Part shown: positions 5,805 to 49,728 of the stretch, in pieces | How the letters are laid out: each line of letters starts with the position of its first letter | How positions within the stretch are numbered: position 1 is the stretch's first letter | Assembly: GCA_026874595.1 (NCBI GenBank) | Contig: CM049315.1 | Location: 68,705,916-68,769,915, forward strand | Direction: 5' to 3' | Origin: Sipunculus nudus | Lineage: Eukaryota > Annelida > Sipuncula > Golfingiida > Sipunculidae | DNA: 64,000 nucleotides | Position numbers and translations under genes: made by a program | The notes under the pieces: model-generated | Database searches by the model: none | Seen by the model: the letters and a program-made list of their open reading frames with translations, nothing else | What the model was told of the DNA's origin: nothing

Positions 5805-6742
5805 CTAATTCAGTGCCCACACACAGGTGGACTCATGTATTAGAAAATGAATAATGGTCTCCAAGAACTTCGTGTGCACTAACCACAAAGATTAGTGATG
5901 TTTTATTTGTTAGATAAAGGTAACCAAGGGTTTTCATAGGTGATATCACCAGGGACAGTGCGCGACCGCGGGAAGTATTGGGGCGACCCCTGTTGGTCGG
6001 ATTGGGGATCAAGTTACAAGTGACTTGTGTGTGCAAACACCTGGCCAACAATTCCTATATTAGGTGTTAGTAAATCTAGACTAAGAACGCAGTAGAACCA
6101 AAATGTAATTTGCGTAAGTTTATTATTTTTCTGTTTCATACTGTTAGTAAATGCCATATATACTCACATTTTCGGTCAGGATTTGTGCAACAAAAGCAAT
6201 TGTCATTTAAATAATTTCTTGAATCTTATCTCCTTCTTTTACTTTCTTATTTAAATAGTTTTATGCATTTTTAATAGTTATTCAGGTGCTATACAGCAGC
6301 AGTTAAAATGAAAATAATGGTGTCAGGAGCGTTGTGATCTATAGTCGTCATACCACATTAACTGTCACTACCAATTCCTGGTATTGTAATTTCTTTTTTT
6401 TTTTTTACACTGCTAGGTAAACTGATTGACAGTTGACAAGGTATTATCATTAATTATAATTATAAACAAGATCAGTATATCTTAGATAAGGTCTGTGATA
6501 CTACCTTGTCTTTGGAGTATATAACCTATGTGGTTGTGTTCTCCAAGGAGCTGTTGTTTTGTACCACACTCACTAACAAACATGTGGGTGCAGCAGATCT
6601 CCAATGTACATTTGTTGTTTGGTTCAGTTAGGTTAATACTCATGATTGGATGGGGTCATTTAGCGGTGGGGGTAGGTCAGGAAGAGATTTTTTTTGTTGT
6701 ATTTAGTTATTTCACTCCACATAATATTTACTATGTTGTTAC
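5805..6742 (+). other. LINE inter-ORF spacer
   Basis: Non-coding sequence between ORF1 and ORF2 of the LINE. The ORFs seen here (5833-6051 minus, 6528-6779 plus) have no recognisable content. Confidence 0.6.
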
Positions 6743-9700
6743 ATGTTTTGTATGTCAAACACAACACTTAAGCTTTTAAGTTTAAATGTTCGGGGTCTCA
6801 ATAACCAACTGAAAAGAAGGTCAGTATTTAGATGGGCAAAAAAAGAATATTGTGATGTACTTCTTCTGCAGGAAACTCATAGTTGTAAAAAAATAGAAAG
6901 TATCTGGAGGAGTGAGTGGCGCGGACAGGTTTTTTACTCGCATGGATCTTCAAATAGTAGGGGAACAGCAATATTGATGAGACAGCAATTAAACACAGAT
7001 TGTGTCAAGTTATTATATAGCTCTAAAGATGGTAGAATTTTGGCTATAAAACTGATAATAGAACAAACTTGTTATGTAATTATGAATGTTTATGCTCCTA
7101 ACTATACTTCAAATCAAATTTCTTTCTTAAAGAATCTCAATAGAATCTTGCAAGAATATGTTTCACTAAATGACATACTTTTCATTGGAGGTGATTTTAA
7201 TGTAGCTCTCAATATAGATTTAGATAGGAGAGGTGGTGCTTTATGTTTAAAAGACTGTGTAAGGAAAGCTGTAAAGAAAATAATGAATCAATATAATTTA
7301 TTGGATATTTGGCGCACAAGGAATCCATTTAAAAGGGAATACACTTGGAGAACAAAAAGTGAAAGCATATCATCCAGGTTAGATTATTGGCTTATAACAG
7401 AACAGTTTCAGGATTATGTAGTAGATGCAGATTTATTCCCATATATCAAATCTGATCATTCCTTTATAAAGTTGGTTATATGCACCGATCTCCTTCACTC
7501 TACAAGGGGTAAAGGATATTGGAAATTAAATAAGTTTTTACTAGAGGATGACCAAATAATCATAGATTTAACTGAATCCATACATACCTGTTTGGAAGAA
7601 TAGAATGATAACAAAGATTATATTAAAATATGGGAGTATATAAAATATAAAGTAAGAAATCTATTTATCAGAAAAGGTAAAGAAGCAAAAAAGTGTTCAA
7701 AAGCAAGAGAAGATGACTTATTGGATCAGTTAAGAAATCTTCAAAATAACTTAGTAAATTTAGATGCAGAGAGTGAAAAGAGAAAAATGGAAAATATACA
7801 AAAAATAAAAGCTGAGTTGGAGGAGATAGATAATCATAAAACACAAGGACTGATACTGAGATCAAAGGTCAGGTGGTTCGAGAAAGGAGAAAAGAGTAGT
7901 AAATATTTTTATAACTTAGAAAAGCATAATGCAGTCAGAAAATGGGTGAGAAAATTAAAAAAGGAAGATGGAGAATTTACTGTTAATCCAAGTGAGATAA
8001 TAAGTTTGGAAAAAGAATTTTATTGTAAGCTGTACTCATCAAATTATAAAAAGTCACTTGAACAAATTGAAGAATATTTGTCAGATATTAAGACTCCACT
8101 ATTATCACAAGAAGAAAATAATTTTCTGTGTAAACGAATTACCATTAGATGAATTATATAATACAGTTAAATCATTTCAAAATAATAAAAGCCCTGGAAA
8201 TGATGATTTGCCTATTGAATTCTATATGAAATTTTGGCCACAAGTAGGTCCTCTGTTAGTGAAATCTTTCAATAAGTCATTTGAGGAGGGTATACGTTCA
8301 GTATCCCAGAGGCAAGCAGTTATAACTTTATTAGATAATAATAAAGACCGTACCTTGTTAAAAAATTGGCGGCCAATATCACTCTTAAATACAGACTATA
8401 AAATTTTATCCAAAACACTTTCTGTTAGACTTTCCAAGCTTTTGCCAAGAATTATACATTCTAATCAGACTGGTTATGTGAAAAATAGATTCATTGGTGA
8501 AAATGTCAGATTTGTTCAAGATTACTGGATTACACAAAAGAAAAGAAAATTCCTGGTATGGTAATTGCATTAGATATGGAAAAAGCCTTTGATTCTTTAG
8601 AATGGACCTTCATGCTGGAAACACTGAAAAAATTTAAAATTAGAGAAACTTTTTTATCTTGGATAAAGCTGTTATACAATGATATAAGCAGTTGTATAAT
8701 TAATAATGGTATAACATCTGGCTATTTTAAAGTTGAAAGGGGTGTCCGACAAGGAGACCCTCTGTCTCCCTACCTTTTTATATTAGCTATAGAAGTTCTA
8801 GCAATTAAAATAAGAAATGATACAGCAATTAAAGGAATTAGAATAGGGGATGAACAAGTTAAACTTCTACAATATGCAGATGATACAATTGCAATTCTTT
8901 CAGATAAAATATCAGGTAGTAACATTTTTAAAACATGATAAATTATTTGGAGAATTTAGTGGACTGAAATTAAATTTAGAAAAATCAGAAGGCATGTGGA
9001 TAGGCAAAAATAAAAATAGTAAGTTGAAACCATTTGGTATTAACTGGCCAGATAAACCAACAAAATTTCTTGGAGTATTTATATCATATGATAAACATAA
9101 ATGTGAAGAGCTAAATTTAGAGGATAAATTAAAACAAACTGAAAAGACTTTGCAGCTCTGGAATCAAAGAAATTTAACAATGCAAGGAAAAATTCAAATA
9201 ATAAAAACATATGTAATATCTAAATTTAATTATTACTTTAGTAATAATAGTATATCAGAAAAATACGTAAATAAACTTAATAAAATTATATTTTCCTTTT
9301 TATGGAATGGTGGGAAAGAGAGAATAAAAAGATCTGTCTTAGTGCAAGAAATAGAAAAAGGAGGTTTGAATGTTCCACACCTTCAGTCACTCTTTTTGGC
9401 ATCAAGGGTGGGCTGGATTAAAAGATTTTTTGAGTGTGAAAACAGACCCTGGAAAGCTTTATGGATTTATAATCTGGAGAAAATTTGTAGAGATATGGAC
9501 ATGTTATTTAATTGTAATTATGAACCTAGCTTATTAAACTTAGAAAATGTTAATAAATTTTATAGAGAGGTCCTACACAGCTGGTACCTCTTAAAGTTAG
9601 ACTTCTATGCAGAGGTGAACATAAAAGAACAGTATGTGTGGCATAACAAGCACTTTATCTTAAATAAGAATACATTCTATTGGGAATCATTTTATAAAGT

Positions 9701-10550
9701 AGGAATACAAAAGGTACAGGATTTATTTGATGTACAGAATCATGTCCTATCTTTTGAGTACTGGAAATCTAGAGGGTTAAAAAGTGTATATTTTATTGAC
9801 TGGTACAATCTAATTTCATTAGCCATAAAACAATGTAAAGTGACTCATGATCAGATAAGTACAATTGTGAAAGGAGACAACGTGGAGTCTGTTAATCATA
9901 TATTAAATAGTTTACAAATTAAAATCCAGAAATCTATTGTGCCATTAAGTAAGTTAAAGTCACATCAGATCTACCAGGTATTAAGAGATAGGATATGTTC
10001 TGTACAACTGACTAAGCCGAAGATATCAAAATATATAACCAATACATCAGAAGATGTATTTATACTTTACCACACAGAGTTTTGTATGATACTAAATCTA
10101 GGATATTTCAATAAATTTCTTAATAATATTTTAGTAAACAATTATTGGCTCATGAAATGGAAAATTCAAGATTTTGATTATTGTACGTTTTGTGAAGGAG
10201 AAGTGGAAACAATTAACCATTTGTTTTGGGATTGTAAGATAACTAGGAAATTTTGGATGGAGTTGAAGACTTGGTGTACCGATCAGTTAATGGAATTTAT
10301 ACTTGATAAGGAAAATGTCTTTTATGGTTCTGCTAAGGATAGTGATATGTATAATGTAATTGTCATACAGGCTAAAAGGTACATTGACCAGTGCAGAAGC
10401 AATAAACAGAAGCTGAATGTTCATAGATTTCAAAACTTTTTATGGGAATATGTAAGAATTGAATATAAAATAGCAGAAAAGAATAAGAAATTAGAATACT
10501 TTAAAAAACGATGGTCATTGTATTTAATTAATCATGAAATGAAATGTTAG
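6743..10550 (+). pseudogene. LINE ORF2 (APE endonuclease plus reverse transcriptase), one stop and three frameshifts
   Basis: ORF2 nicks target DNA and reverse-transcribes the element RNA at the nick. The N-terminal APE-type endonuclease (6743-7603) shows LSLNVRGLN, LLLQETHS, FIGGDFNVAL, SRLDYWLI and SDHS. The RT follows with NKSPGNDDLP, NWRPISLLNTDYKILSK, ALDMEKAFDSLEW, GVRQGDPLSPYLFIL and the YADD catalytic box near 8874. The C-terminal region has a Cys/His motif (CTFCEGEVETINHLFWDC near 10180), as in L1. An in-frame TAG at 7601-7603 and frame changes near 8135, 8540 and 8930 break it; at least the last two lie in A-rich runs. Start is the ATG at 6743, with 6752 an alternative. Confidence 0.92.
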
Positions 10551-19224: not shown

Positions 19225-19323
19225 TGTTATGTCATGTTCCAATGAATAAATAATCCAGATGGTGTACATGTCTGTATTTATTTTGTCTGACACAGGATAC
19301 ATATAAGCACTTGTAAACACGAT
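19225..19323 (-). repeat. 3' LTR of gypsy element (truncated)
   Basis: About 100 bp match the start of 30853-31014, including CCAATGAATAAATAATCCAG and ACATATAAGCACTTGTAAAC. The match stops near 19323, so about 60 bp of this LTR is missing on the internal side. No clear target duplication is visible. Confidence 0.75.
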
Positions 19324-20007
19324 TGTTTATCAAAGGCTTTTCGATGTTCAGGTGCCCATCAAGTCTACATCTTTCTTTGTCAAGTCTCAAAGGGGTGCTG
19401 TTAGCAGGGACAAGATTGGGACGAATCGACTGAGATAATTCGCCTTTCCAAGAAGTGGTTGTACCTCACTGATGTTTTTGGGTGGTATTATTCATTTGAT
19501 ATAGTCAACTTTGATATGCCAATACACCTTTGTCAGATATGTAGTGCCCAAAGAATTTGATCTTGTTCTGGATTACTGTACATTACTCTGGCTTAAGTCT
19601 GAGTCCGACCTGTTGTGTACGCTGTAACACATATAAAGGTTTCTGGCATGGTCCTCTTCAGTCTTTCCAAACACAACTATGTCATCAGCAATTCCAATAA
19701 CGCCAGGCAGATTGTCGAATGTCTTTTGGAAAATGTCCTGAGCTGAAACTAGGCCAAAGGGAAGTCTTTTGAAGCAGTACCGTCCGTATGGAGTATTGAA
19801 TGTCGTCAGCAATTAAGAGTCTTCATCGCGTTTAATGTTCCTGTATCCAGATCTAGCATCTAGTATGCTGAATATCTTTGCACCTGCGAGTTTTGGCAGT
19901 ACGTCGTCAAGGGTCGGTGTGTAGTGGTGTTCTCGTCTGACTCAATTGTTTAGTTCACGGGAATCTAAGCATATCCTGAGATCGCCATTCGGCTTTTTGA
20001 CATATAC
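19324..20007 (-). pseudogene. gypsy reverse transcriptase core (part 2), broken
   Basis: On the minus strand this reads through LDSRELNN, TPTLDDVLPKLAGAKIFS, LDARSGY, TFNTPYGRYCFKRLPFGL and GIADDIVVFG, which contains the catalytic (x)xDD box. The hinge NKIKFFGHYIS and PLLGKANYLSRFVP follows. These are Ty3/gypsy RT motifs in the right order. Stops (for example near 19815) and frameshifts interrupt it. The 5' part of the RT lies right of the 819 bp insertion at 20008-20826. Confidence 0.85.
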
Positions 20008-20826
20008 CAAGGAGATTAAAGACTGGAGTATCAAGTGAGAGTCCGGCCGTGTCGAATGTTGCTGACGGGGGTCATAAAACTCGCTGCTCAAAGGCACGCT
20101 GATATGCTGCTGATAACCCCGGCGCTAATTCATACAGCGCGAGAGACCCCCCTTCGGCGTGACTTCGTAACATCTCGGTAATTCCCGGCTGCGGTAAACA
20201 TGGGCAATAATACGAGAACAACGCCGTCAGTGACAGAGTGGGCGATGGCTCACTATTATCCATCAAAATGAAGTCATCCGTTCATAAACCTCAAAATATT
20301 TAGTTATCGACGGAACGGAATGCTATAATACAAGGCTAATTATAAATATGTGTCAGAAGGTTGGGAACTGATGTAATTTTTAATAATTCCGAAGTTATTC
20401 AGGGAAAATAAGGTTTACTTTTACCAGTCGTCCGTCATTAATCACGGCAGAAGTTGATGCAGATGCCCGCATCTATCCAAAATCGATCCAGTGATTTCTC
20501 AACACGAGACTTCTCTAGATATATTTGTAACGCACAATTCTTGACAAAACAAACCATTTTTGTATTTATAATTCCGGTCAATGTCATTCCAGTGATATGC
20601 CGCTCAGTTACTGGATATATCGCTCTCCGCTTCAGCGGGCTACAGCGGACCGCGTAAGTAACATCTAGCAGACTCGCTTTATCAAAGGCCGTGCCGCCGC
20701 TGCGCCTGACCGCTGCACAAAAGGCGCACAATAGAGTTAATGGGCTTATCAGGTCTTAATTGCAATTAGCGCACCACTGACACTCGGGACTTCTGACAGT
20801 TGATACTCCAGTCTGTAATCTCCTTG
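20008..20826. mobile_element. 819 bp TIR element inserted in gypsy RT
   Basis: The ends are inverted repeats: CAAGGAGATTAAAGACTGGA on the left and, inverted, CAAGGAGATTACAGACTGGA on the right, both continuing GTATCAA. A 7 bp duplication CATATAC flanks it at 20001-20007 and 20827-20833. RT motifs lie on both sides, so the insertion splits the gypsy pol. The internal ORFs (20072-20266, 20438-20731) are unrecognised. The TSD length (7, possibly an original 8) would fit a hAT- or P-like nonautonomous element. Confidence 0.8.
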
Positions 20827-20833
20827 CATATAC

Positions 20834-21147
20834 TAAGCTTTTGACCCAGTCAGTTGGTCCATCAACCTTTCCAATTATGTCCAAGTCTGTCATTTAGTTC
20901 TTTTCTTAGAGGATCTGTCAGTGCCTCAGGCACACGTCTGGGTGGTTTGATTATAAGTTCGGCGTCTGATTTTTAGCTTTATGTTGTATTCGCCTGGGAA
21001 CAATCCAACCCCTTTAAAACATTCAGGAAATATGTCCATAAAGTCTTTTTCGGGATCACCACTAATACCGTCAAGGTTGTTTTTGAGTTGTCTGGGCTGT
21101 CATTGTGTACCACATATATTTGACCTTGTTCGTGGCATGTTCTACAG
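20834..21147 (-). pseudogene. gypsy pol linker and start of RT (part 1), broken
   Basis: The minus strand reads DFMDIFPECFKGVGLFPGEY, then PPRRVPEAL and, in another frame, IIGKVDGPTDWVKSL. This is the protease-RT linker and first RT block of Ty3/gypsy elements. There are frameshifts between the blocks. It is separated from the protease by the 7.3 kb transposon. Confidence 0.75.
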
Positions 21148-21150
21148 TCT

Positions 21151-21300
21151 TAGTCTGGGAGCCAGTGATGTGAATTTTCAGATTTGTTGCACCCCCCCTA
21201 CAACATTTGACACCATATTTTATCTTATTCTATGGGTTTTTGCGATTAAATGAGCCCAGGTGTCACTTTATAGCTTCACCTTTAAGGAAGTTACAGGACT
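21151..21300 (+). repeat. Left terminal inverted repeat of the 7.3 kb transposon
   Basis: Matches the inverse of 28310-28473 in three blocks separated by diverged sequence. The innermost shared block is TTTAAGGAAGTTACAG, near 21280. Confidence 0.85.
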
Positions 21301-22954
21301 CTGAAGTTTGGTAGTCATTTAACAAAAAGAACACTTAAATATGATCAACGCTGGCTTGAGAGTTTTGTTATGTTACATAAATGGTTTAATTTGATTAATC
21401 ATACCTATACTGCCAAAGTCCTAATTATATTTTTTCCTTAAATGTAATATTCGCTTTTTGTTTTGATCATAATTACAAAAAAAAATACAATTTATTGTAC
21501 AAGTTGCCATTAATAAAAAAAGCTGATGATATTCTTCAATTAATAGTGAATGATAGTAAACAATTTCAGATCAATAGTTCATTGGTCAAAACCTATTGTC
21601 TGCATATCAAATGCGACTGGAATTTGTTCGTTAATTCAAAATGTTTCTAGTTTTATATATATTTATATATTCATGGATTTAATTAAAAGAAAGCATTTGA
21701 CAGTGTAAAAGATAGAATCTTGGGCATAGCTGTTGTACAATTCCATACTTACGCGGTAAATGAGACAAGTATTGCAATTAATTAGCACATTCTACATATA
21801 TTCATTTGAAATATCCTTTATTCTATTTGATATACACAAAAACCTGATGAAGGCAGTAAATCTGTCTATGCAAGCCAACAATCTCCTTTGTAAGAAAATT
21901 AAGCCCAAGAAATTCCTTTATTTCAGAATGATCACAAATGTTTTAGCCCAATAATCAATTTGACAAAATTTGTATTACTTGCCAACAAATGAGACTGCTA
22001 TGTCATTTAAATTTGTTAAATCGTTCGTGATATCGACAGATTCTGTTCCTTGATTTTATTCTACAAAAGCTTTTGACAGTGTAATGACCAGGACTAAAAT
22101 TGATCAAAACAACAAATGTTGAACATTCTGAAACATTTACTTAAATTAATCATTTAGGTTTAATGCATATTTGTCAAATTATGGAAATATTTCATGCCAT
22201 TTGCTTGCACTGCTAATTCTGTTTAATCATTATCTTGTACCAGTGCAACCATGTCTATCCAAGTGGATTGCCTGCATGAAAACCTATAACATTAGGTCAG
22301 CTGTCTTTTTCCGCATTGAAGGTGACAGTAGCCTGAATGAGGGGTCGCTTTTTTTTATTTTAAGTTATTTTGCAATTTCAGCATTACTTCGCCGTGACTT
22401 AAGTAGTTACACATCAAGATCGGTAATCTGTTTGTGGACCGTTCATGAAGATAATTTTAATTCAGGGAAATCATGGTCATTTTTCCTTGAAGCTCTTCCA
22501 TCGAATTATTGCTCTTAGTTTTTTTCTCATTTGCACAAATACAGGTCCCTCTGCTAAATTCCAATAAGGCATTTGATGCGAACAAGGAAAAAAGTTTTTA
22601 GCACCCCCAGCTAAAAGCATGTGGTAAAACATGAATGTTGCAAGCTTTGATAGATAACAAGGCTACACTGAGTAACCGCCACAAGCATGTGATACATTTT
22701 GATACATTGTGCAAGCTGATTTGATTCATAAAAAGTGATTGGATAAATTATTTTTTAAATAAAAGAGAAGAATCATTCTTTTATACAAATAGTCTTGGTA
22801 AGCAATACACAATTTAAGTCCTCTGGCTAGTTGTGATCAAAAGCTTTTTTTGATCCGCCAATTGGTTAACTCTCACATTGAAAGATATGCATTAAAGCAG
22901 ATATATCATTTTGTAATTCCACTGCTATAAAACACTATATCCATTGTAACCAAC
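21301..22954 (+). other. 5' non-coding part of the transposon
   Basis: About 1.65 kb of AT-rich DNA before the transposase-like gene. The ORF at 22171-22518 has no recognisable domain. Promoter elements could not be identified with confidence. Confidence 0.5.
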
Positions 22955-25900
22955 ATGGCAGAATCATCCCTTGAACTTTCAGGTTCCAAAAGTAAGAAAG
23001 CAAAATTTCTTGACATTTCGAAATGTATCTTTTGTCAAACCACATCTAAAGACAAATTATCATGCGCATCAGTCCAAGGAATAGCACGTTTGCGAGAAGT
23101 GACTGCCATTAGACAGGACGAAACATGTAAACGTTTACAAGAACAATGGTCATCGGTAGAAGAATCTGCAAAATGGCATCTGAATTGTTATAAGAAATAC
23201 ACAAGGAAAACAAATGTAGACAGATATTTGCAGAGGCGTCAGCTGCCAATATCAGTGGAGATCAAAGAGGCAGGCCCTTCCTGCTCCAAGGAATATGTTA
23301 CATCTCCAGTCAAAACCAGAAAAACGTCTGGCGTATCCACAGATTGGAGTAAATGTGTAATTTGTCAAAAAACATATAAAAAAGGTGATTCCTCTTTGTC
23401 ACAGATCCTCACTGTTTCCGCGTCGGAATCATTACGGCATGCTGCAGAAACAAAGAAAGACAGAGCAGTTCTCTTACGAATAAGGGGAGAGGACTTGATA
23501 GCTGTAGAAGCTAAATACCACCGTCCGTGTTACATGAATTACACGTCAAAGACAAACTTAATGACAGCACCAGAGAATGACCCACAGGAAGATGATAGTC
23601 AGCATAGGGAAGCATTTGCTGTTCTGTTGAGGGAAATAGATACCAAACTGATGGATCAAAAACAGGCTTTCACCTTGACAAGTTTGCTTGAACGATACAG
23701 GGATATCTTAACAGAAAAAATGCCCGGAGAACAGAAGTACCGGGGTGAAAAATTAAAAAAACAGACTGAAAAAGTATTATTGAGAAAAAATTGTGTTTCA
23801 AGCCCAAGCTGTTCCTAAAAAGTCTGAAAAAGTCTGAAAGTCTGTTTAGCAGCTCTATAACACTAGGTGATGCCGTCCAAGCAGCAAGGCAGCTGAATGA
23901 AGATCTTGAAGACATGAAACTCGAGACCGATATCTTCGGACCACAGGAACATGACAGCACAGAGGACCCTCAACAAATATTATATCATGCTTCACAAATA
24001 CTCCGAACAACCCTTAAAGGTTGCACTGGGATAAAGACTAATCCAGTTCAATGTGATGACATTTCTAATGAGTCTGCACTGGAGATAATTCCAGACAGCT
24101 TGTACAATTTTATATTGTGGTTGCTGGAATCAGACAGGGGTCACAGCAGCCTATCCCTGACAGCAGGCGAAGGCAAGAAAAAAGCAAGCAGTGACCAGAT
24201 TGATAGACAAGTGTTATCCATCAGCCAGGACCTCCTTCATGCTTTCTCAAGGGGCACCACGCGGGCACCAAAACATGTTGGCATAGCCATACTAATACGC
24301 AATATGACTGGAAGCAAACAATTTGTAACTCTTCTGAACAGATTTGGCCACTGTTGTATTTATGATGAGCTTGAGAGAATTGATACTGCTATTGCCAACG
24401 ACCAGCTGAAGAAAGGAGAAGCAAATGATGGTGTGGTACTGCCATCAAACATCATACCAGGATCGTTTGTGCAGGCAGCGACAGATAATGATGATCTCAT
24501 TGAGGAAACCCTTGATGGCAAACAGACTACACATGCGACAACACTAGTGCTTTACCAACGGCAGTCATGTGAGCAAAGAAGAGTCCAGGGGCAATTTGCT
24601 GAGTCAGTTTGTCTTACCAGCACACGTTCAAGATCTCTATCGGGTCAATGTCCAGGACAAGAGATTTTAAACTTCAGTGTGTCCGGCAAGCATCCCAAGG
24701 CCAGCAGATTTGTTGGGGAAAGTCTCTCTGGAATGGTATAGCCAGGCTACCAGGAATGCTGAAGCAAAGAATATTGATGAAGCCTGGATGATTTGTCGAC
24801 TTTGTCCACAAAAGCTATTCCAAGTCAGCCTTCAACCAAAAGCAAATCAGTCAGTACCTGGATGGACCCCTTTCAATGCACTGTTGAGCAGCAAAAATCC
24901 CCCAGTTACCAAAATCGGTTACTGCCCAATGATACCAGAGCCCCAACACAGTATTCGACAGTCTTTACCGTAATGAAAACGGTCCAGACGATGATGAAAT
25001 CACTTGGACAAATGACAACAGTTATCACATTTGATGAAGCCATATATTGTAAGGCAAAGGAAATACAATGGCGCAATCCAGATACTTTCCAAGGCTTTGT
25101 CATAAGATTAGGTGGTTTTCATATGGCCCTCACTTTTCTAGCATCAATTGGAAAGTTGTATGATGAGAGTGGACTTCAAGATATTTTGATAGAATCTGAA
25201 ACATATGGTAGCACAACAGTGCGTCAGCTAATGAAAGGCAAATCATACAACAGGGGAGTTAGAGCTCACAAACTTATGCTGGAAGCAATGATGCGACTGA
25301 GATGGAAGGCAATGGGTGATTGGATGAAAACAAGTGAGGTACATGCAGAATTAACTGACCAGGAAGAACTCATCCAGCTTATTGAGAGATTCTGTGACCT
25401 GCTTGAGAATGACTATTCAGAAGACATCAATATTGCTTTCCAACAAATTTTGCATAAAATGCCTTTCATCCAAAACATTCAAGATCAGTTTTGCAGGGAA
25501 GGGGAATCATCACTTACCTTCAAATTCGGGAGCAATTATCTTGATATGATATGTTGTCTACTTGCCTTTATAAGGGCAGAGAGAGATGGAGATTGGGCCC
25601 TTCACCTAGAGTGTGTTGCAAAGATGATACCATATTTCTTTGCAGCCGATAGAATTAACTATGCACGCTAGGCCTGCGTTTATTTGGCAGATATGCAAAG
25701 GCTGGATGTTACTGCTCCAGATGTGTATGAACAATTCTGTCAGGGAAATCATCCTGTTAAAAGGTCACGCCAACGATTTAACCAAGTCTGGAGTGACATG
25801 GCATTAGAGCAAAGTGTTAACAGGGACAGCAAAACAAAGGGAGGTATAATTGGAATCAGTATGCACCCAGGAGCGCTTAACAGGTGGTTCTTGACAGCTC

Positions 25901-27840
25901 ATGAGAGAGCTGCTGCTACATCAGCCATAAAAGTGATGGCAGGACTCAAAGAGAAAAGTGATCTTGGAAAACACAGCCACAAGGAACTGGGCTCTAAGCG
26001 AAAAATGAGAGATGAACATGATATCCAAAAAATAGTGGACACAATTAAAGGCCAAATGATTAATCCATTCATACTTGTTCAACCAGCGGAACAGCTGTGT
26101 AACATTGCCACAGGTGTCATTGCACCAGATACAACAGCAAAAGACTTGACATCTTCTTTTCTCATTGGACAAAAGGCAATGAATGTATTTGTGGAAGACA
26201 GATTGAAAACAGGAAAAGTTCCATTCTTTGACCCGATTCGTAAACTAAATATTCAGAAGTTTTCAAATGTAAGTGCCAAGAAGAGTAAAAAGGACAGTTC
26301 AACCGCTATGAAGCTTGCTTCGGTGAATGAGGACAGAGAACTTTTCAGCCGAATAGTAGTTGTTGCAAAAACAAGAAATGTTGACCTGAAACAAGTTTTT
26401 GTACACGAGCTCTCATCAGTGCCATATTCATTGGCACATGCGGATGAAAGACTAAGGAAGGCTACTAAGAGCACACTTTTAGGAGAGTTAGAAAGAGAGG
26501 TTTCAATGCACTGTGATATGCCTAATACAGGATCAACCACCTGGATTATCGATGGGATGGCCATTCTTCAGATGGTAGGATCTCGAGGAGCAGTCAACTT
26601 TGGACAGCTCAGTAAAAATATATTGCAGCTGATAATGAAGCCATTCAAGTGTACAGCATGCAAACGTTTAGATGTTGTATTTGATGCATATAACACAGAG
26701 CACTCGATAAAGAGTTTCGAGAGAGCAAGACGCCAAACATCTGACAGCATTGAAATGTGTATTTACAGCAAAGATACCCCACTCCCAAAGGATTGGAAGC
26801 GCTTTATGTGCAGTCCCAAGAATAAAGCTGCTCTTACATCATTCCTCTCTGAGAACTGGTGTGTGGCTGCCCCTGAGTTGATGAAAGAAGGTCAAGTTTT
26901 GATACTTGCTGGTGGTTTCAGTGACCCCACACAGTCAAGGGCATTGACAACGAGAGAGGTCAGAACCCTTGCTCACCTATGCAGCACACAGGAAGAAGCT
27001 GACACAAGGATACTTTTGCATTCAGCAGATGCGGCAATTGGCTCAAATACTATTGTAGTGTGGTCACCTGACACAGATGTGGCTATCCTTTGCATACACT
27101 TTGTCAGAAGCCTGAATGTGCAGATCTGGTTCAAAACAGGGGTCAAGGACAAGCCTAGATTCATTCCCATCCATGAAATAGCAGGCAAACTGGGTGACGA
27201 GATCAGTCAACTTCTACCAGGGCTCCATGCCCTAACGGGTTGTGACTCAACAAGTGGACTTTTCTCAGTTGGCAAAGTAAAACCCCTGAAATGGGCAAGG
27301 CAAAATATTCAACAAGCACTTCCTCTGAGGGAACTTGGATCATCAAGGAGTGTTACAGAGGCTGCAGAACATGCCTGCTTTTTGCTAGTGTGTCAGATGT
27401 ATGACAAAAAGTGCTGCAATGAAGATGTCAATGGTCTGAGGTACCGACTTTTTTGTCGGAAGCGAGCCAAAAATGAAGATTTGCCCCCCACATCTGACAG
27501 CCTCAGATGTCATATTGCTAGAGCAAACTACCAGTGCCTCATTTGGCGACATGCACTGGATGCGGAGGCAACGATTCCGTCTCCAGCCGGAAATGGATGG
27601 GAGATATGTGATGGGAATATTCAGCCTGTACTCATGACACTTGACCCAGCACCGAGAGCACTTATGGAAGTCATCACTTGCAACTGCAAAACTTCACACT
27701 GCTGAGGGCGCTGCAGCTGCTCTTCGGAGGGTCTTATTTGTACTGCAGCATGTGGTTGTGAAGGTGAAGAAAATTGTCAAAATCCTCATCGTAGTCAGCG
27801 CAGGCTTATAAGTGACTCTGATTCTTCAGATCAGGGGTAA
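22955..27840 (+). pseudogene. Transposase-like protein: two CxxC...HxxC modules, central domain, XPG/FEN-like nuclease, CXC tail
   Basis: About 1600 codons, starting MAESSLELSG. The N-terminus has two repeated modules: C24/C27 with H75/C78, and C134/C137 with H189/C192, each closing H-x2-C-Y-x2-Y-T. The middle has ATDNDDLIEETLDG (about 24480), VITFDEAIYCKAKEI (25021), RLGGFHMALTFLASIG (25108) and DMALEQSVNRDSKTKGGIIG (25795). The C-terminal part resembles XPG/FEN1 nucleases: IIDGMAI (26551), VVFDAYN...ERARR (26683), EEADTRILLH (26992), SPDTDV (27067) and HALTGCDSTSG (27241). Family members with these motifs are common in cnidarians and molluscs. This copy is broken by frame changes near 23790, in 24560-24740 and near 24940, and by stops at 25669-25671 and 27703-27705. 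Confidence 0.85.
27706..27840 (+). pseudogene. Cysteine-rich (CXC/tesmin-like) tail beyond a premature stop
   Basis: The frame after the TGA at 27703-27705 stays open for 44 codons to TAA at 27838-27840. Together with the last residues before the stop (CNCKTSHC) the spacing is C-x-C-x4-C-x3-C-x-C-x6-C-x3-C-x-C-x5-C-x-N. This is close to one CXC repeat of tesmin/TSO1 (CRC) proteins, a zinc-binding DNA-contact module. The stop therefore truncates a recognisable domain. It is listed apart from the gene because it lies outside the open frame. Confidence 0.6.
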
Positions 27841-28309
27841 CATGGAGTTTAAGTTACCTGAGGTGTTTTGCTTAGATTATATTCCTGTACTCCAGGTAAA
27901 GTGCACGTGTTAAGATATTTCATTATATTAGAGAATCTTGCTGTGCTAAGGTTCAGCAATATTTGTAACACTTGATCCATTATATTCTCTCAAGTGTGTT
28001 GCAAAGAAATGTTTATTACCTCTGTTAAATGAAGAGTAATTGAAAGAAATTAAAATAAAAAGCATAAAAAATGTAAGACAACTACATTGTTTTAGCACGA
28101 AGTGTAGGAAAAAAAGTAAAAAAAAATTAAAAAAAAATGAAAAAAATATGTTTATTGTTTGTTTAGTAATGTTAAAACATTCTGCAAAAATGTTAATTTG
28201 CTTTTGTGCCAATTTCAGTTTTTTTTTTTTAACTGAAATGGCTTACGTGATATTTAACATGCTGTATCGTTATTAGCTCCAGCCAAAAATAGATCATTGT
28301 ATAAAAATT

Positions 28310-28473
28310 ACTCTAACTTCCTTAAAAGTGTCGATAGAAAGCGACACCCGGCCTCATATGAAAGCTGAGAATCAGCTCTATCAAATGGTACCATCAAACT
28401 AATGTTGTGGGGGGGGGGGGTGTGCAACAAACTCTTATTTTAAGGCCCCTTCTGGTATCTGGCTCCCAGACTA
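28310..28473 (-). repeat. Right terminal inverted repeat of the 7.3 kb transposon
   Basis: Inverse of the left end. It includes a long G run (about 28408-28419), which accounts for part of the length difference from the left TIR. The stretch 27841-28309 before it is A-rich and non-coding. Confidence 0.85.
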
Positions 28474-28476
28474 TCT

Positions 28477-28877
28477 CGTTCGTCTTCACAGTTCAGCTGG
28501 ATTAGTCCGAGGTTCACGCATGATCTTAGGCCTAAGATTGCTGGACCTTCAGCCTCAGTTACATGAAAATCAATGGTGAGTGTCTTGTCTTGGTGTGAGC
28601 ATTGAAGTTCACATCGTCCATGTTGTTTTATCTGTGTCCCACCATAGGCGAGAAGCTTGACCTTTGGTGTTTGTACCCCAGCAGGTTGCCCGTTGCTTGT
28701 CAGTTGGTTTGGAAATAGCACTTTATACAGTCTTGCTGGCGTGATGTTTGACCGTGCCCCAGTAACGAGTTTACATCTCACAGCAAAGGTTCCTTTTTCT
28801 GTATTAATGTCGATATTTGCAAATACCTGATCACGAGGCCCCCCTTTGAATATGGTCTGTATTGTAATACCTTGCAA
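28477..28877 (-). pseudogene. gypsy aspartic protease (retropepsin), active-site mutant
   Basis: Minus-strand frame with FKGGPRDQVFANIDI, then the active-site region KLVTGARSNITP, then KLLAYGGTQIKQHGRCEL and the closing AILGLRSCVNLGLIQL. Retropepsins need D-(T/S)-G; here the Asp is Val, so this copy cannot be active. The frame ends just inside the inserted transposon. It lies between gag (29100 upward) and the linker/RT at 21147. Confidence 0.8.
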
Positions 28878-29099
28878 TGCCAGTGAGCTAGAGCATTATT
28901 CATTATTCCCAATGTGCTCAACATCAATAGTGTCAAAAACAAATTCCTTAAAGTCTTCATTAATTTGTTCAGTGTCGTCTTATTCATTAGCAATTTCATG
29001 CACCCTCCTGTCAGAAGAACGTGGCTGTCTTTGTGTCTGTCCATACTGTCTAGGTCTAGATTGTGACCCCAGTCTGTCGGTTTGATACCTCATTTATAA

Positions 29100-29863: not shown

Positions 29864-29937
29864 TGTTATTCAAGTAAATATTTCAAGTACAAACAGTTAC
29901 ATGCAAGATACAATTTCCTGTGATTAAAAAAAGTTAT

Positions 29938-30411
29938 ATAGTCCTTTATCTCTTGTAATCCAAAATACAAAGTTCAATGAATATAGTTCACAGCAACTGA
30001 AGATAGGTAATCCAAGGAAGATTGGTCCATGAATGTATTCATAATAGCTGTATATTTCGCTGTTCCTTTATTCAGTGAAACAGGTGCTTGTCTCACATGC
30101 TGGTCTCATGATCTTGATCTTGTGTTATTGTTGTTGTGGATGGGTTAAAGTTCTTGACCTGACACACTTGTTAAATAGTCCTTTATCTCTGGTAATCCAA
30201 AACACAAAGTTCTATGAATATAGTTCACAGCAACTGAAGATAGGTAATCCAAGGAAGATTGGTCCATGAATGTATTCACAATAGCCGTATATTTCGTTGT
30301 ACCTTTATTCAATGAAACAGGGGCTTGTCTCACATGCTGGTCTAATGTTCTTGATCCTGTGTTATTGTTGATGTGGATGGGTTAAAGTTCCTGACCTGTC
30401 ACACTTGTTGT
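29938..30411. repeat. Tandem duplication, two units of about 236 bp
   Basis: The unit starting TAGTCCTTTATCTC (about 29939) repeats at about 30176 with a few differences and ends near CACTTGTT in both. It lies in the untranslated leader of the gypsy element, between the primer-binding site and gag. Confidence 0.9.
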
Positions 30412-30852: not shown

Positions 30853-31014
30853 TGTTATGTTATGTTCCAATGAATAAATAATCCAGATGGTGTATATGTC
30901 TGTATTTATTATATCTGACACCGGATACATATAAGCACTTGTAAACACGACTGTCCAGTCGGACGGTGTAGCATAGACTGCCCCTACAGTACTTGGTCAG
31001 TGACTAATGTAACA
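30853..31014 (-). repeat. 5' LTR of gypsy element
   Basis: About 162 bp. On the plus strand it begins TGTTATG and ends GTAACA, giving TGTTA...TAACA termini. The first about 100 bp match 19225-19323. It is short for a gypsy LTR. Confidence 0.65.
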
Positions 31015-37613: not shown

Positions 37614-37819
37614 GTGAATGAATAGCCATGCTGGTTCGTTGTACGAAGAAATGGAACAAGAATACACAGAAAAGTCGGTTCACTGCCGATGGGAATCGAA
37701 CCCATGACCTTACGATTGCCGTTCGCTAGCTCTATTACTGAGCTACAGCAGATCCCCGACCCCTCTGTGTATTTGCACATATTTCTTTGAACAACTAACC
37801 AGCATTTCTATTCATTCAT
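37614..37819 (-). mobile_element. tRNA-like core inside about 60 bp inverted repeats
   Basis: The left arm begins GTGAATGAATAGCCATGCTG and the right arm, inverted, ATGAATGAATAGAAATGCTG. Both arms contain AATACACAG and a GTCGG block next to the core. The core (minus, 37683-37751) has a 6 of 7 bp acceptor stem (CTGCTG/CGGCAG), a GCTC/GAGC D-stem, an A-box-like TAGCTCAGTAA and a B box GGTTCGATTCC. It is a SINE- or MITE-like repeat, not a normal tRNA gene: position 33 is not T and no CCA-type context exists. Confidence 0.7.
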
Positions 37820-37958: not shown

Positions 37959-38088
37959 GTGCAAATACACAGGGGGGTCGGGGATCTGCTGTAGCTCAGT
38001 GGATAGAGCAAACGACCCGCTGTCGTAAGGTCATGGTTCGATTCTCATCGGCAGTGAACCGACCTTTCTGTGTATTCTTGTTCCATTT
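37959..38088 (+). mobile_element. Second tRNA-like repeat, opposite orientation
   Basis: The core 37986-38054 (69 nt) matches that of the element at 37614-37819 with several changes, including a different anticodon loop. It has TAGCTCAGTGG and GGTTCGATTC boxes. The flanks AATACACAGG-GGGTCGG and CCGACC-TTCTGTGTATTC are inverted around the core. It runs into a TA tract on the right. The outer arms are shorter than in the first element. Confidence 0.7.
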
Positions 38089-42716: not shown

Positions 42717-43450
42717 ATGAAAAAAAATATTAAAACTCCCGGGAATGATGGATTTCCAAAAGAATTTTTTTATCTCGTCGGGAAGGATCTCGTTAATTGT
42801 TTGCCCAGATGTTTTGAGGAGGGTAAGCTAACTACAAGTCAAAGGCAAGCAGTGGTTAATTTGATAGAAAAACTAGTTAATGATAATCGTTTAATCTCAT
42901 CATGGCGACCAATTAGTTTGTTAAATGTCGAATATAAGATATTAAGTAAAATTTTAGCACGGCGCTTAAATGTTGTCCTTCCTAATCTGATTAATGAGGA
43001 CCAGACGGACTTTGTACCCGGGGGAACCATTTGTGAAACGAACCATTTAATCTGTGATATCTTAGATTATTGTATCAAAGAAAATAAACCTGATATCTTG
43101 TTTGCAGTTGATTTTTCTGCTGCTTTCGACTCCATAGATCGTAACTATATGTTCAGTGTTTTGGAAAATGTTGTCTTCCAGACAGGTTTTATTAAATGGG
43201 TACAACTTCTTCATAACGATATCAAAAGCTGTATAATAAATAATGGATACCCCACAGGATATATCGGATTAGCAAAAGGTAACAGACAAGGAGATCCCTG
43301 GCGTCATATTTGTTTGTCATGGCCATTGAGATCCTAGCAATAATGGTACGTAAATCTGTGTCTATCAAAGGGATAAATATTAACTGCTTTGAAATTAAAC
43401 AGTGTATGTATGCATACGATACCACATTTTTGGCAACAACGGTGGCTTGA
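42717..43450 (+). pseudogene. LINE reverse transcriptase domain
   Basis: Shows TPGNDGFPKEFF, SWRPISLLNVEYKILSK, AVDFSAAFDSIDRNYMF and GNRQGDP. After a frameshift near 43300 it continues AIEILAIMVRK and YAYDT at the catalytic box, where one Asp is replaced. Non-functional on that count alone. Confidence 0.88.
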
Positions 43451-46402: not shown

Positions 46403-46942
46403 CTAAGCACTAGGAGTTAATTGATATCTGTGCAAGATAGCATGGATCACTTTATCATAATCCCTTTGTTCTTTCTGGGAAAGTGGATGGAAGGCCTGCT
46501 GAGCATTTCCAGTAAGATATGGTTCTAAATAATGACTCCATTCACTTTTAGGAATTTGATATCTATCGACCAAATTCTCAAAAGTTTTGATCCAATAGTG
46601 GATATCATCTCTACCTGTCAGTTTAGTCATTTCTTTGATCTTAACATGGGATTGACTACCTGCTTGTTTAACCATCATCTTCTCAAGAAGATTAATAAAT
46701 CTATCATTATCCTCTTTCCTATGCTTTTCCATCTCACTAAGGACAGACTGGAAAGAAACATCTGACATACCCTTAAGAGATACTCCAGGCTCTTTCATGT
46801 CAGGAATCTCTACTAAAGCATCTATATGCTCTTCCTTAGTATTCAAATCAGACAATTCTAAATGATTATGTTCACACAATTGAACAATATAAACTTTAGT
46901 ATATCTACGCAAAATAGCTTTCTTTTCATCTCTTGAAGCCAT
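46403..46942 (-). pseudogene. Gag capsid of second gypsy element
   Basis: Starts MASRDEKKAILRRYTKVYIV (46942), with a SAP-like N-terminal helix pair, then a coiled stretch (LSEMEKHRKEDNDRFINLLE). Then comes the capsid core: KLTGRDDIHYWIKTFENLV, SEWSHYLEPYLTGNAQQAF. Gag of Ty3/gypsy type. The frame closes at 46403 while capsid-like sequence continues out of frame toward the knuckle. Confidence 0.8.
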
Positions 46943-47063
46943 GATGACATTTAAAAGAAATCAACTATTATTAGTACGGAATTACCTTCTTTTATTTCTA
47001 AGGATAAATGGCTCACTATCTTTTAGCTGCCGCCCAGAAGACAGTTCACCAGAACCACATGAG

Positions 47064-48519: not shown

Positions 48520-49728
48520 AGTCTCTCCTAGCCATAATAAATTTAACTCGTCACGAATTCCAGAATATAAGACGGGGGCCAGACTGTTCTAATTGTCACT
48601 CTCCGCCTTGGTGACAAGTCTTGGAAGTAGAGAGAATTCAGCGGGAGAACCACGTGTCATCTGTTGACGGAAGAGGCTTAGTGACAGCTGCGTTTGGCAT
48701 AATCTGCCCATGTTACGGTATCTAGGCATCGTTGATAGGGACCTGTTTGCCGTTAATTTTCAGCCGGCCGTGCCAGAACCGTACTTTTTGTTTGTCCGTG
48801 AATGCCTGTCTGATTTGTGGCCCGGCTTTCTTCTTCAAATAATAATCTTCCCTGACCAAGTCTTCTACAAAGTGTGCGGCGTTTCCGTCCTCTTGACCTC
48901 GTTTCTCTCTTTGTGTTTTTAGTAGTGTGTTTCGTACCGGTCTTGCATAGAATCTCTCTATAATATGTCTATGGCCCTCAGATTTTTGTTTACCGGTTCT
49001 ATGAGCGTTTTCAATAGCTTCCAGCCCATTAATTGTTTCAAAATCATCATTCAGGAGTTTTTCGTTAACAATATGCTCTGTCACAATCTTTTTACAGTCC
49101 TCCTGTTTTTGTTCTGGGATCCCAATGAGTCTCAAGTTAAACTCCCGGCTAAAAGTTTCCGAGTCCAATAACTTTTCCTTTAATGAAGAAATCTGCTGAT
49201 TTTTCTCATTGTTTTCTGATTTCAGTTCATTTACTTCAGATTTCAGAGCTTTATTTTCTGCTTCAATTTTTGCCAATTTAGTCACTGTTTCTTTAAGGTC
49301 AGCCTGTGTAAATTCAAGACTTTTCACTACAGATTCAACTTTTGAGTTCAGTGAAGCATAATTAGTTTCTGCTTTCTAGACCACTTCTAATATGTGAAAT
49401 CCCTTCACCAAGTGATGTTTTAAAGTCATTCAAAGCAGTCTGCATTACCTCTTGAAGTTGGGTGCACTTAGCATCTACAACGTCCATTATTGAACCACTT
49501 GCGTTAGAGGACCCTGGTTCTCGCCCGTTTTTCTGTGAAGGGTTGGACTTTTTCTGCCCTTGTTTTAAATATTTCTCCATACTTGGTTGCTCCAAAGATG
49601 ACATATCACTTTTGCTTATTGACCGTGTAGTAATTTGAGACACCTGTGACATATCCAGTGAGATACTAATTTACTGAGAGAGCACATGAAAGTGTGTCCA
49701 CTCATTCGGCCATATTGAACCGGATGTC
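48520..49728 (-). mobile_element. Minus-strand L1-like LINE, 5' UTR and ORF1
   Basis: The 5' end near 49728 reads GACATCCGGTTCAATATGGC on the minus strand, nearly the same start as the LINE at 4885 (GACATCCGGTTAATGGCG). ORF1 covers 49652-48722; about 200 bp of inter-ORF spacer follows and stops at the gypsy LTR. ORF2 is absent. The same insertion exists in copy 1 (1-77), so it predates the duplication or allelic split. Confidence 0.8.
48722..49652 (-). pseudogene. LINE ORF1 (L1 ORF1p-like), one frameshift
   Basis: Starts MSQVSQITTRSISKSDMSSL at 49652. After a frame change near 49365 it continues through a long coiled coil (KLAKIEAENKALKSEVNELK and NEKNQQISSLKEKLL, about 49280-49150). Then comes the RRM-like block REFNLRLIGIPEQKQEDCKK, then NAHRTGKQKSEGHRHIIERF, and a C-terminal domain ending LKINGKQVPINDA. 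This is the same architecture as 4966-5804, though the protein is longer. Confidence 0.85.

Follow-up and report, generated by a model that had tools for sequence, protein, structure and literature searches.

Structure of the element and its insertion site

A stretch of 64,000 nt from Sipunculus nudus (assembly GCA_026874595.1, contig CM049315.1, positions 68,705,916 to 68,769,915; hereafter the window, to which all coordinates refer) contains a DNA transposon of 7323 bp at positions 21151-28473, of which this single copy was analyzed. The element encloses one degenerate gene and is probably a full-length, inactivated member of the Academ superfamily resembling AcademX. Its outermost 15 nt form exact terminal inverted repeats (TIRs), the left one (TAGTCTGGGAGCCAG, 21151-21165, plus strand) being reproduced as its precise reverse complement at the right end (28459-28473, minus strand), and both are directly flanked by the trinucleotide TCT (21148-21150 and 28474-28476) as target-site duplication (TSD). 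When the window was searched with the 15-nt end allowing up to three mismatches, only two matches were obtained, both exact and both representing the element's own ends; by itself, this count is not significant, as the chance mean is 0.80 and at least two such matches occurred in 20 of 100 shuffles. The inverted homology continues imperfectly towards the interior. When 400 nt from each end are aligned locally in opposite orientation, 21151-21296 (plus strand, 146 nt) pairs with 28311-28473 (minus strand, 163 nt) at a score of 75. For 489 pairs of segments drawn at random from the window and oriented in the same way, the 95% point is 29; one of them reached 88 and the next 43, both due to AT-repeat matches. 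Within this alignment, the block 21250-21296 is 81% complementary to 28311-28357. The matching outer ends, the TIR blocks up to about 150 bp deep and the flanking TCT described in the initial annotation are thereby corroborated.

Joining the two flanks (453 nt from the right and 420 nt from the left) yields a minus-strand host frame that is open across the junction (...LNCEDERDCRTCHEQG...), irrespective of whether one TCT or two are retained, while stops and frame breaks appear farther out on both sides. Since no stop breaks this gypsy-like frame where the flanks meet, the element is an insertion into an older gypsy-like retrotransposon. Upstream of the insertion lies the protease part of the host element (28474-28895, minus strand), and on the other side its pol gene continues (20731-21150, minus strand) with what by eye is the linker towards the reverse transcriptase, the frame being broken farther on. 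Hence, the previous statement that a gypsy pol gene resumes on both sides is confirmed with respect to the open frame, whereas the family label was assigned by eye only, the protease open reading frame (ORF) giving no Pfam match at E 0.01 or better.

On the outside, the transposon is flanked by two 102-bp direct repeats with 94% identity (19225-19326 and 30853-30954), which could be remnants of short long terminal repeats of the gypsy-like host element; a target duplication around them was looked for and none was seen. The gypsy-like region also shows a tandem duplication of about 237 bp with 93% matches at 29933-30409.

A single degenerate gene

Counted from its first ATG up to the stop that follows the reading of the C-terminus, the gene of the element covers 22955-27840 on the plus strand. 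It is not contained in one open frame but distributed over ORFs alternating between two frames (22931-23818, 23770-24741, 24781-25671 and 25672-27705, all plus strand), and ORF 24671-24973 is probably also part of it, having been included by judgement in view of its density of stops and of motifs typical of the family. In addition, the gene is interrupted by an in-frame TAG at 25669-25671 and an in-frame TGA at 27703-27705 (both plus strand). Because of these two stops, the latter located inside a cysteine cluster, the copy is almost certainly dead, while some of the frame changes could be due to introns. The last ORF, which bears the HALTGCDSTS motif, comprises 677 codons and is far beyond chance, as compared to 272 for the longest frame found in 200 first-order Markov-simulated elements. 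Over the 1.8 kb to the left of the gene, ORFs do not exceed 122 amino acids (aa) and the only repeats are short and imperfect. A single large gene at 22955-27840, as initially annotated, is thus present, albeit broken by frame changes and two stops, about which the title of that annotation was silent.

Several modules can be deduced along the predicted protein. At the N-terminus, the first ORF encodes two CxxC...HxxC modules of 55 residues (23024-23188, plus strand) and 59 residues (23354-23530, plus strand), both putatively zinc-binding as judged from the motif. In the middle of the protein, about 200 residues (25078-25668, plus strand) show a weak match, below the cut-off, to Pfam DUF6589, a family of unknown function according to Pfam; this stretch is a candidate for an RNase H-like transposase core. 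Close to the C-terminus, a tesmin/TSO1-like CXC cysteine cluster (27676-27783, plus strand) is interrupted by the TGA stop and matches PF03638 (TCR/CXC) at a sub-threshold level, with a cysteine spacing that we take to resemble the CXC pattern; the Cys-rich domain proposed earlier is supported by this tail. Other Pfam matches of the four ORFs (zf-RING-like, RBD_LARS1, DUF7020 and DUF7760, E 0.07 to 0.24) were rejected as noise. Searches of NCBIfam, PHROGs and PADLOC gave no credible match for the element proteins, an NCBIfam VanL match at 17.9 bits versus a cut-off of 750 likewise being noise, and helicase families were not matched by the element ORFs scanned.

An acidic-residue set resembling FEN1 and EXO1 nucleases

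Between the DUF6589-like stretch and the cysteine cluster, the region 26551-27246 (plus strand) carries seven acidic residues in the same order as in the FEN1/EXO1/XPG 5' nucleases, with codons starting at 26551 (D), 26683 (D), 26995 (E), 27001 (D), 27070 (D), 27076 (D) and 27244 (D), the last being the D of HALTGCD. Their spacing is 44-104-2-23-2-56, compared to 48-72-2-19-2-52 in EXO1 and about 53-72-2-19-2-61 in four archaeal FEN1 sequences. Accordingly, the E-x-D/E and D-x-D pairs are internally spaced as in these nucleases and the G-C-D turn is also present in EXO1, whereas the stretch between the second and third acids is longer than in FEN1/EXO1 (104 versus about 72). A seven-acid pattern written from the nucleases, the spacing limits of which were widened after the element protein had been seen, matched none of 20,000 shuffles of the element sequence, five of six FEN1/EXO1 sequences and, among the nine ORFs of at least 200 aa in the window, only the element's own gene. 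Human FEN1 failed in this first form, deviating at a single point, the second of the hydrophobic positions that follow D-x-D; with that hydrophobic position omitted, all six family sequences were matched, again in contrast to 0 of 20,000 shuffles, and the reversed sequence was not. Of the XPG-like nuclease claimed initially, the XPG/FEN-like set of acidic residues is supported, being present in order and not reproduced by shuffling.

The pattern limits adjusted to the element and the initial failure of human FEN1 weigh against a nuclease and also against an AcademX-like element, as do the following results. Alignment by hhalign to a profile built from the six FEN1/EXO1 proteins did not reach significance (score 23.46, with one of 100 shuffles scoring as high) and spanned only the stretch around HALTGCD, the controls scoring 14.01 (reversed sequence) and 20.14 (ORF of a long interspersed nuclear element, LINE). 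With hmmsearch, the nuclease profile gave an E value of 0.024 in a set of four sequences, compared to 0.52 for the reversed sequence. The Pfam scan of the ORFs returned no XPG match, and a PDB sequence search with the last ORF no match at E 1; three PDB matches for 26473-27120 (E 1.2-1.9) were all unrelated. A structure model of 26473-27705 predicted from the single sequence was too poor for a fold search (predicted local distance difference test, pLDDT, 38.5). The flanking modules are affected as well: the DUF6589 match (E 1.5e-4) reaches 21.1 bits versus the Pfam cut-off of 27 and is not raised by reading through the stops (E 3e-4, 20 bits), and the PF03638 match (E 0.045) reaches 14.5 bits versus a cut-off of 23.5. 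Of two attempts to enlarge the FEN1 set, one gave no confirmed sequence and the other four stretches without FEN1 similarity. Consequently, the assignment of 26551-27246 to the FEN1/EXO1-like nucleases is suggestive and is carried by the acidic motif, the profile score not being significant.

Classification of the element

Academ proteins are described in Repbase as combining an XPG nuclease with a Cys-rich domain. Excerpts of PMC10045372 give TSDs of 3 or 4 bp for AcademX and of 9 or 10 bp for AcademH, two groups of the same superfamily, and state that this difference in length seems to be related to whether a nuclease or a helicase is encoded. Elsewhere, again in excerpts, Academ is listed among the DDD/E transposase superfamilies (PMC9587614; also PMC10294476), a RecQ helicase is mentioned in Academ (PMC3627910), and a bivalve-specific Academ amplification is reported, the curated elements averaging 5565 bp and ranking with the longest DDE elements of that study (PMC10294476). 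In the open-licence texts, as far as their excerpts extend, none was found that names the nuclease of Academ as XPG, and the same literature yielded no paper on HALTGCD or DUF6589.

The sipunculan element is similar to AcademX as described in these excerpts in having TIRs, a 3-bp TSD and, judged by motif, a nuclease, while the 9- or 10-bp TSDs and the helicase of AcademH set the latter apart from it. Because the 3-bp TSD and the TIRs are found and the other features are suggestive, it is filed here as AcademX-type. On the other side stand its condition as a broken copy, the comparison with a published description instead of an Academ protein sequence, and a TSD length read from one copy. On balance, we consider it probable that the element is a full-length but inactivated Academ-type transposon of the AcademX kind, likened to Academ by description. 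It would then probably be a degenerate member of a superfamily already described and an ordinary fossil copy. The earlier proposal of Academ has thus gained from the TSD length and the nuclease, both in line with the excerpted account of AcademX (PMC10045372), although we still infer the superfamily. The remark that the element has no familiar transposase domain is not supported as a sign of novelty, as Academ is listed as DDD/E in PMC9587614 and PMC10294476 and the middle of the protein weakly matches DUF6589.

Further superfamilies with short duplications or characteristic termini were considered. Harbinger elements duplicate a 3-bp TWA target, which the TCT duplication does not fit. In EnSpm/CACTA-type CMC elements the termini start with CAC..., in conflict with the ends found here, which read TAGTCTGG. 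Zator elements possess a 3-bp TSD together with a Zator transposase.

A TIR transposon belonging to an unnamed superfamily related to Academ, sharing the nuclease and the CXC tail but having a transposase core of its own, is an unlikely alternative, yet the one that fares best. It would account for the missing direct sequence link to Academ, for a transposase core represented by nothing but the sub-threshold DUF6589 match and for ends fitting neither the Harbinger nor the CACTA-type rules, whereas both the TIRs and the length of the TSD are in keeping with the description of AcademX excerpted from PMC10045372 and the nuclease motif points in the same direction. Quite improbable is a non-autonomous or chimeric element in which a transposon, the source of the TIRs, has picked up the nuclease gene as cargo. 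Only one copy was examined and the 1.8 kb on the left side of the gene lack any ORF beyond chance length, as might be expected in this case, but the remainder of the element is filled by one gene that unites the zinc modules and the DUF6589-like stretch with the nuclease motif and the CXC tail, and each end finds its match in the other and nowhere else in the window. Finally, it is very improbable that a gypsy-like element was rearranged and contains a host gene, or some other repeat, the ends of which are inverted by chance. A 3-bp duplication alone would be expected in about 1 of 64 cases, which speaks for this reading, but it would here have to coincide with the exact 15-nt ends, the alignment score of 75 versus a 95% point of 29 and the open junction frame.

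Searches for relatives

Relatives were sought in collections of prokaryote, phage, plasmid and viral sequences, which are poor places for finding a eukaryotic transposon. No relative was confirmed for the last ORF in viral and general genome contigs or for the DUF6589-like ORF in viral contigs, using six exact 8-residue words each, a procedure that distant relatives would escape. The degenerate motifs HALTGCD, DGKxTTHxT and EEADTR retrieved 2, 13 and 3 stretches, respectively, from viral contigs, none of them related, the best tblastn hit of the four ORFs against these 18 loci having an E value of 0.22. Scanning general genome contigs for HALTGCD...GK gave no hit, and tblastn of the last ORF found no match in plasmids and phages.

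Other features of the window

Apart from the transposon and its host, the window holds LINE-like remains at 6725-10550 (plus strand), where an endonuclease (PF03372, E 3.6e-14), a reverse transcriptase (E 1.3e-8) and a zf-RVT domain (E 8.4e-7) are encoded by separate ORFs. A second LINE-like reverse transcriptase fragment is present at 42717-43337 (plus strand; PF00078, E 3.3e-15), and an L1 ORF1-like fragment at 48722-49375 (minus strand; Transposase_22, E 1.7e-4, 22.3 bits versus a cut-off of 22.4). ORF 46403-46960 (minus strand) shows a weak, below-cut-off match to DUF1759 (E 9.6e-5), a family that occurs in gag-like proteins of retroelements. Two transfer RNA (tRNA) matches in opposite orientation were obtained with Rfam (37681-37752, minus strand, 47.1 bits; 37985-38056, plus strand, 34 bits), of which ARAGORN called only the former, as tRNA-Ala (ggc).

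Proposed mechanism and implications

Judging by how cleanly it is inserted and by the short duplication, the element would have entered the gypsy-like retrotransposon by cut-and-paste transposition and decayed afterwards. Its one gene may have encoded a large multi-domain transposase, in which DNA, including the transposon ends, would be contacted by the zinc modules at the N-terminus and by the CXC cluster at the C-terminus. The central RNase H-like domain predicted from the DUF6589-like stretch would catalyze strand cleavage and transfer, and cutting or trimming of the other strand would fall to the FEN1/EXO1-like nuclease domain and produce the 3-bp stagger seen as TCT. This division of roles is suggested by the domain content.

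To our knowledge, proteins with the HALTGCD motif are numerous and widespread, and mostly unnamed or uncharacterized. As a tentative and rather doubtful generalization, all of them might represent, or descend from, a single type of transposase that joins an RNase H-like core to a FEN1/EXO1-like nuclease and in which the nuclease, not the DDE site, makes the second-strand cut, hence the 3-bp stagger. The element described here provides this protein family with a bounded transposon, thus tying a motif without a name to transposition, and points to a testable split of labour in Academ transposition, with separate tasks for a DDE-like core and for a 5'-nuclease domain.

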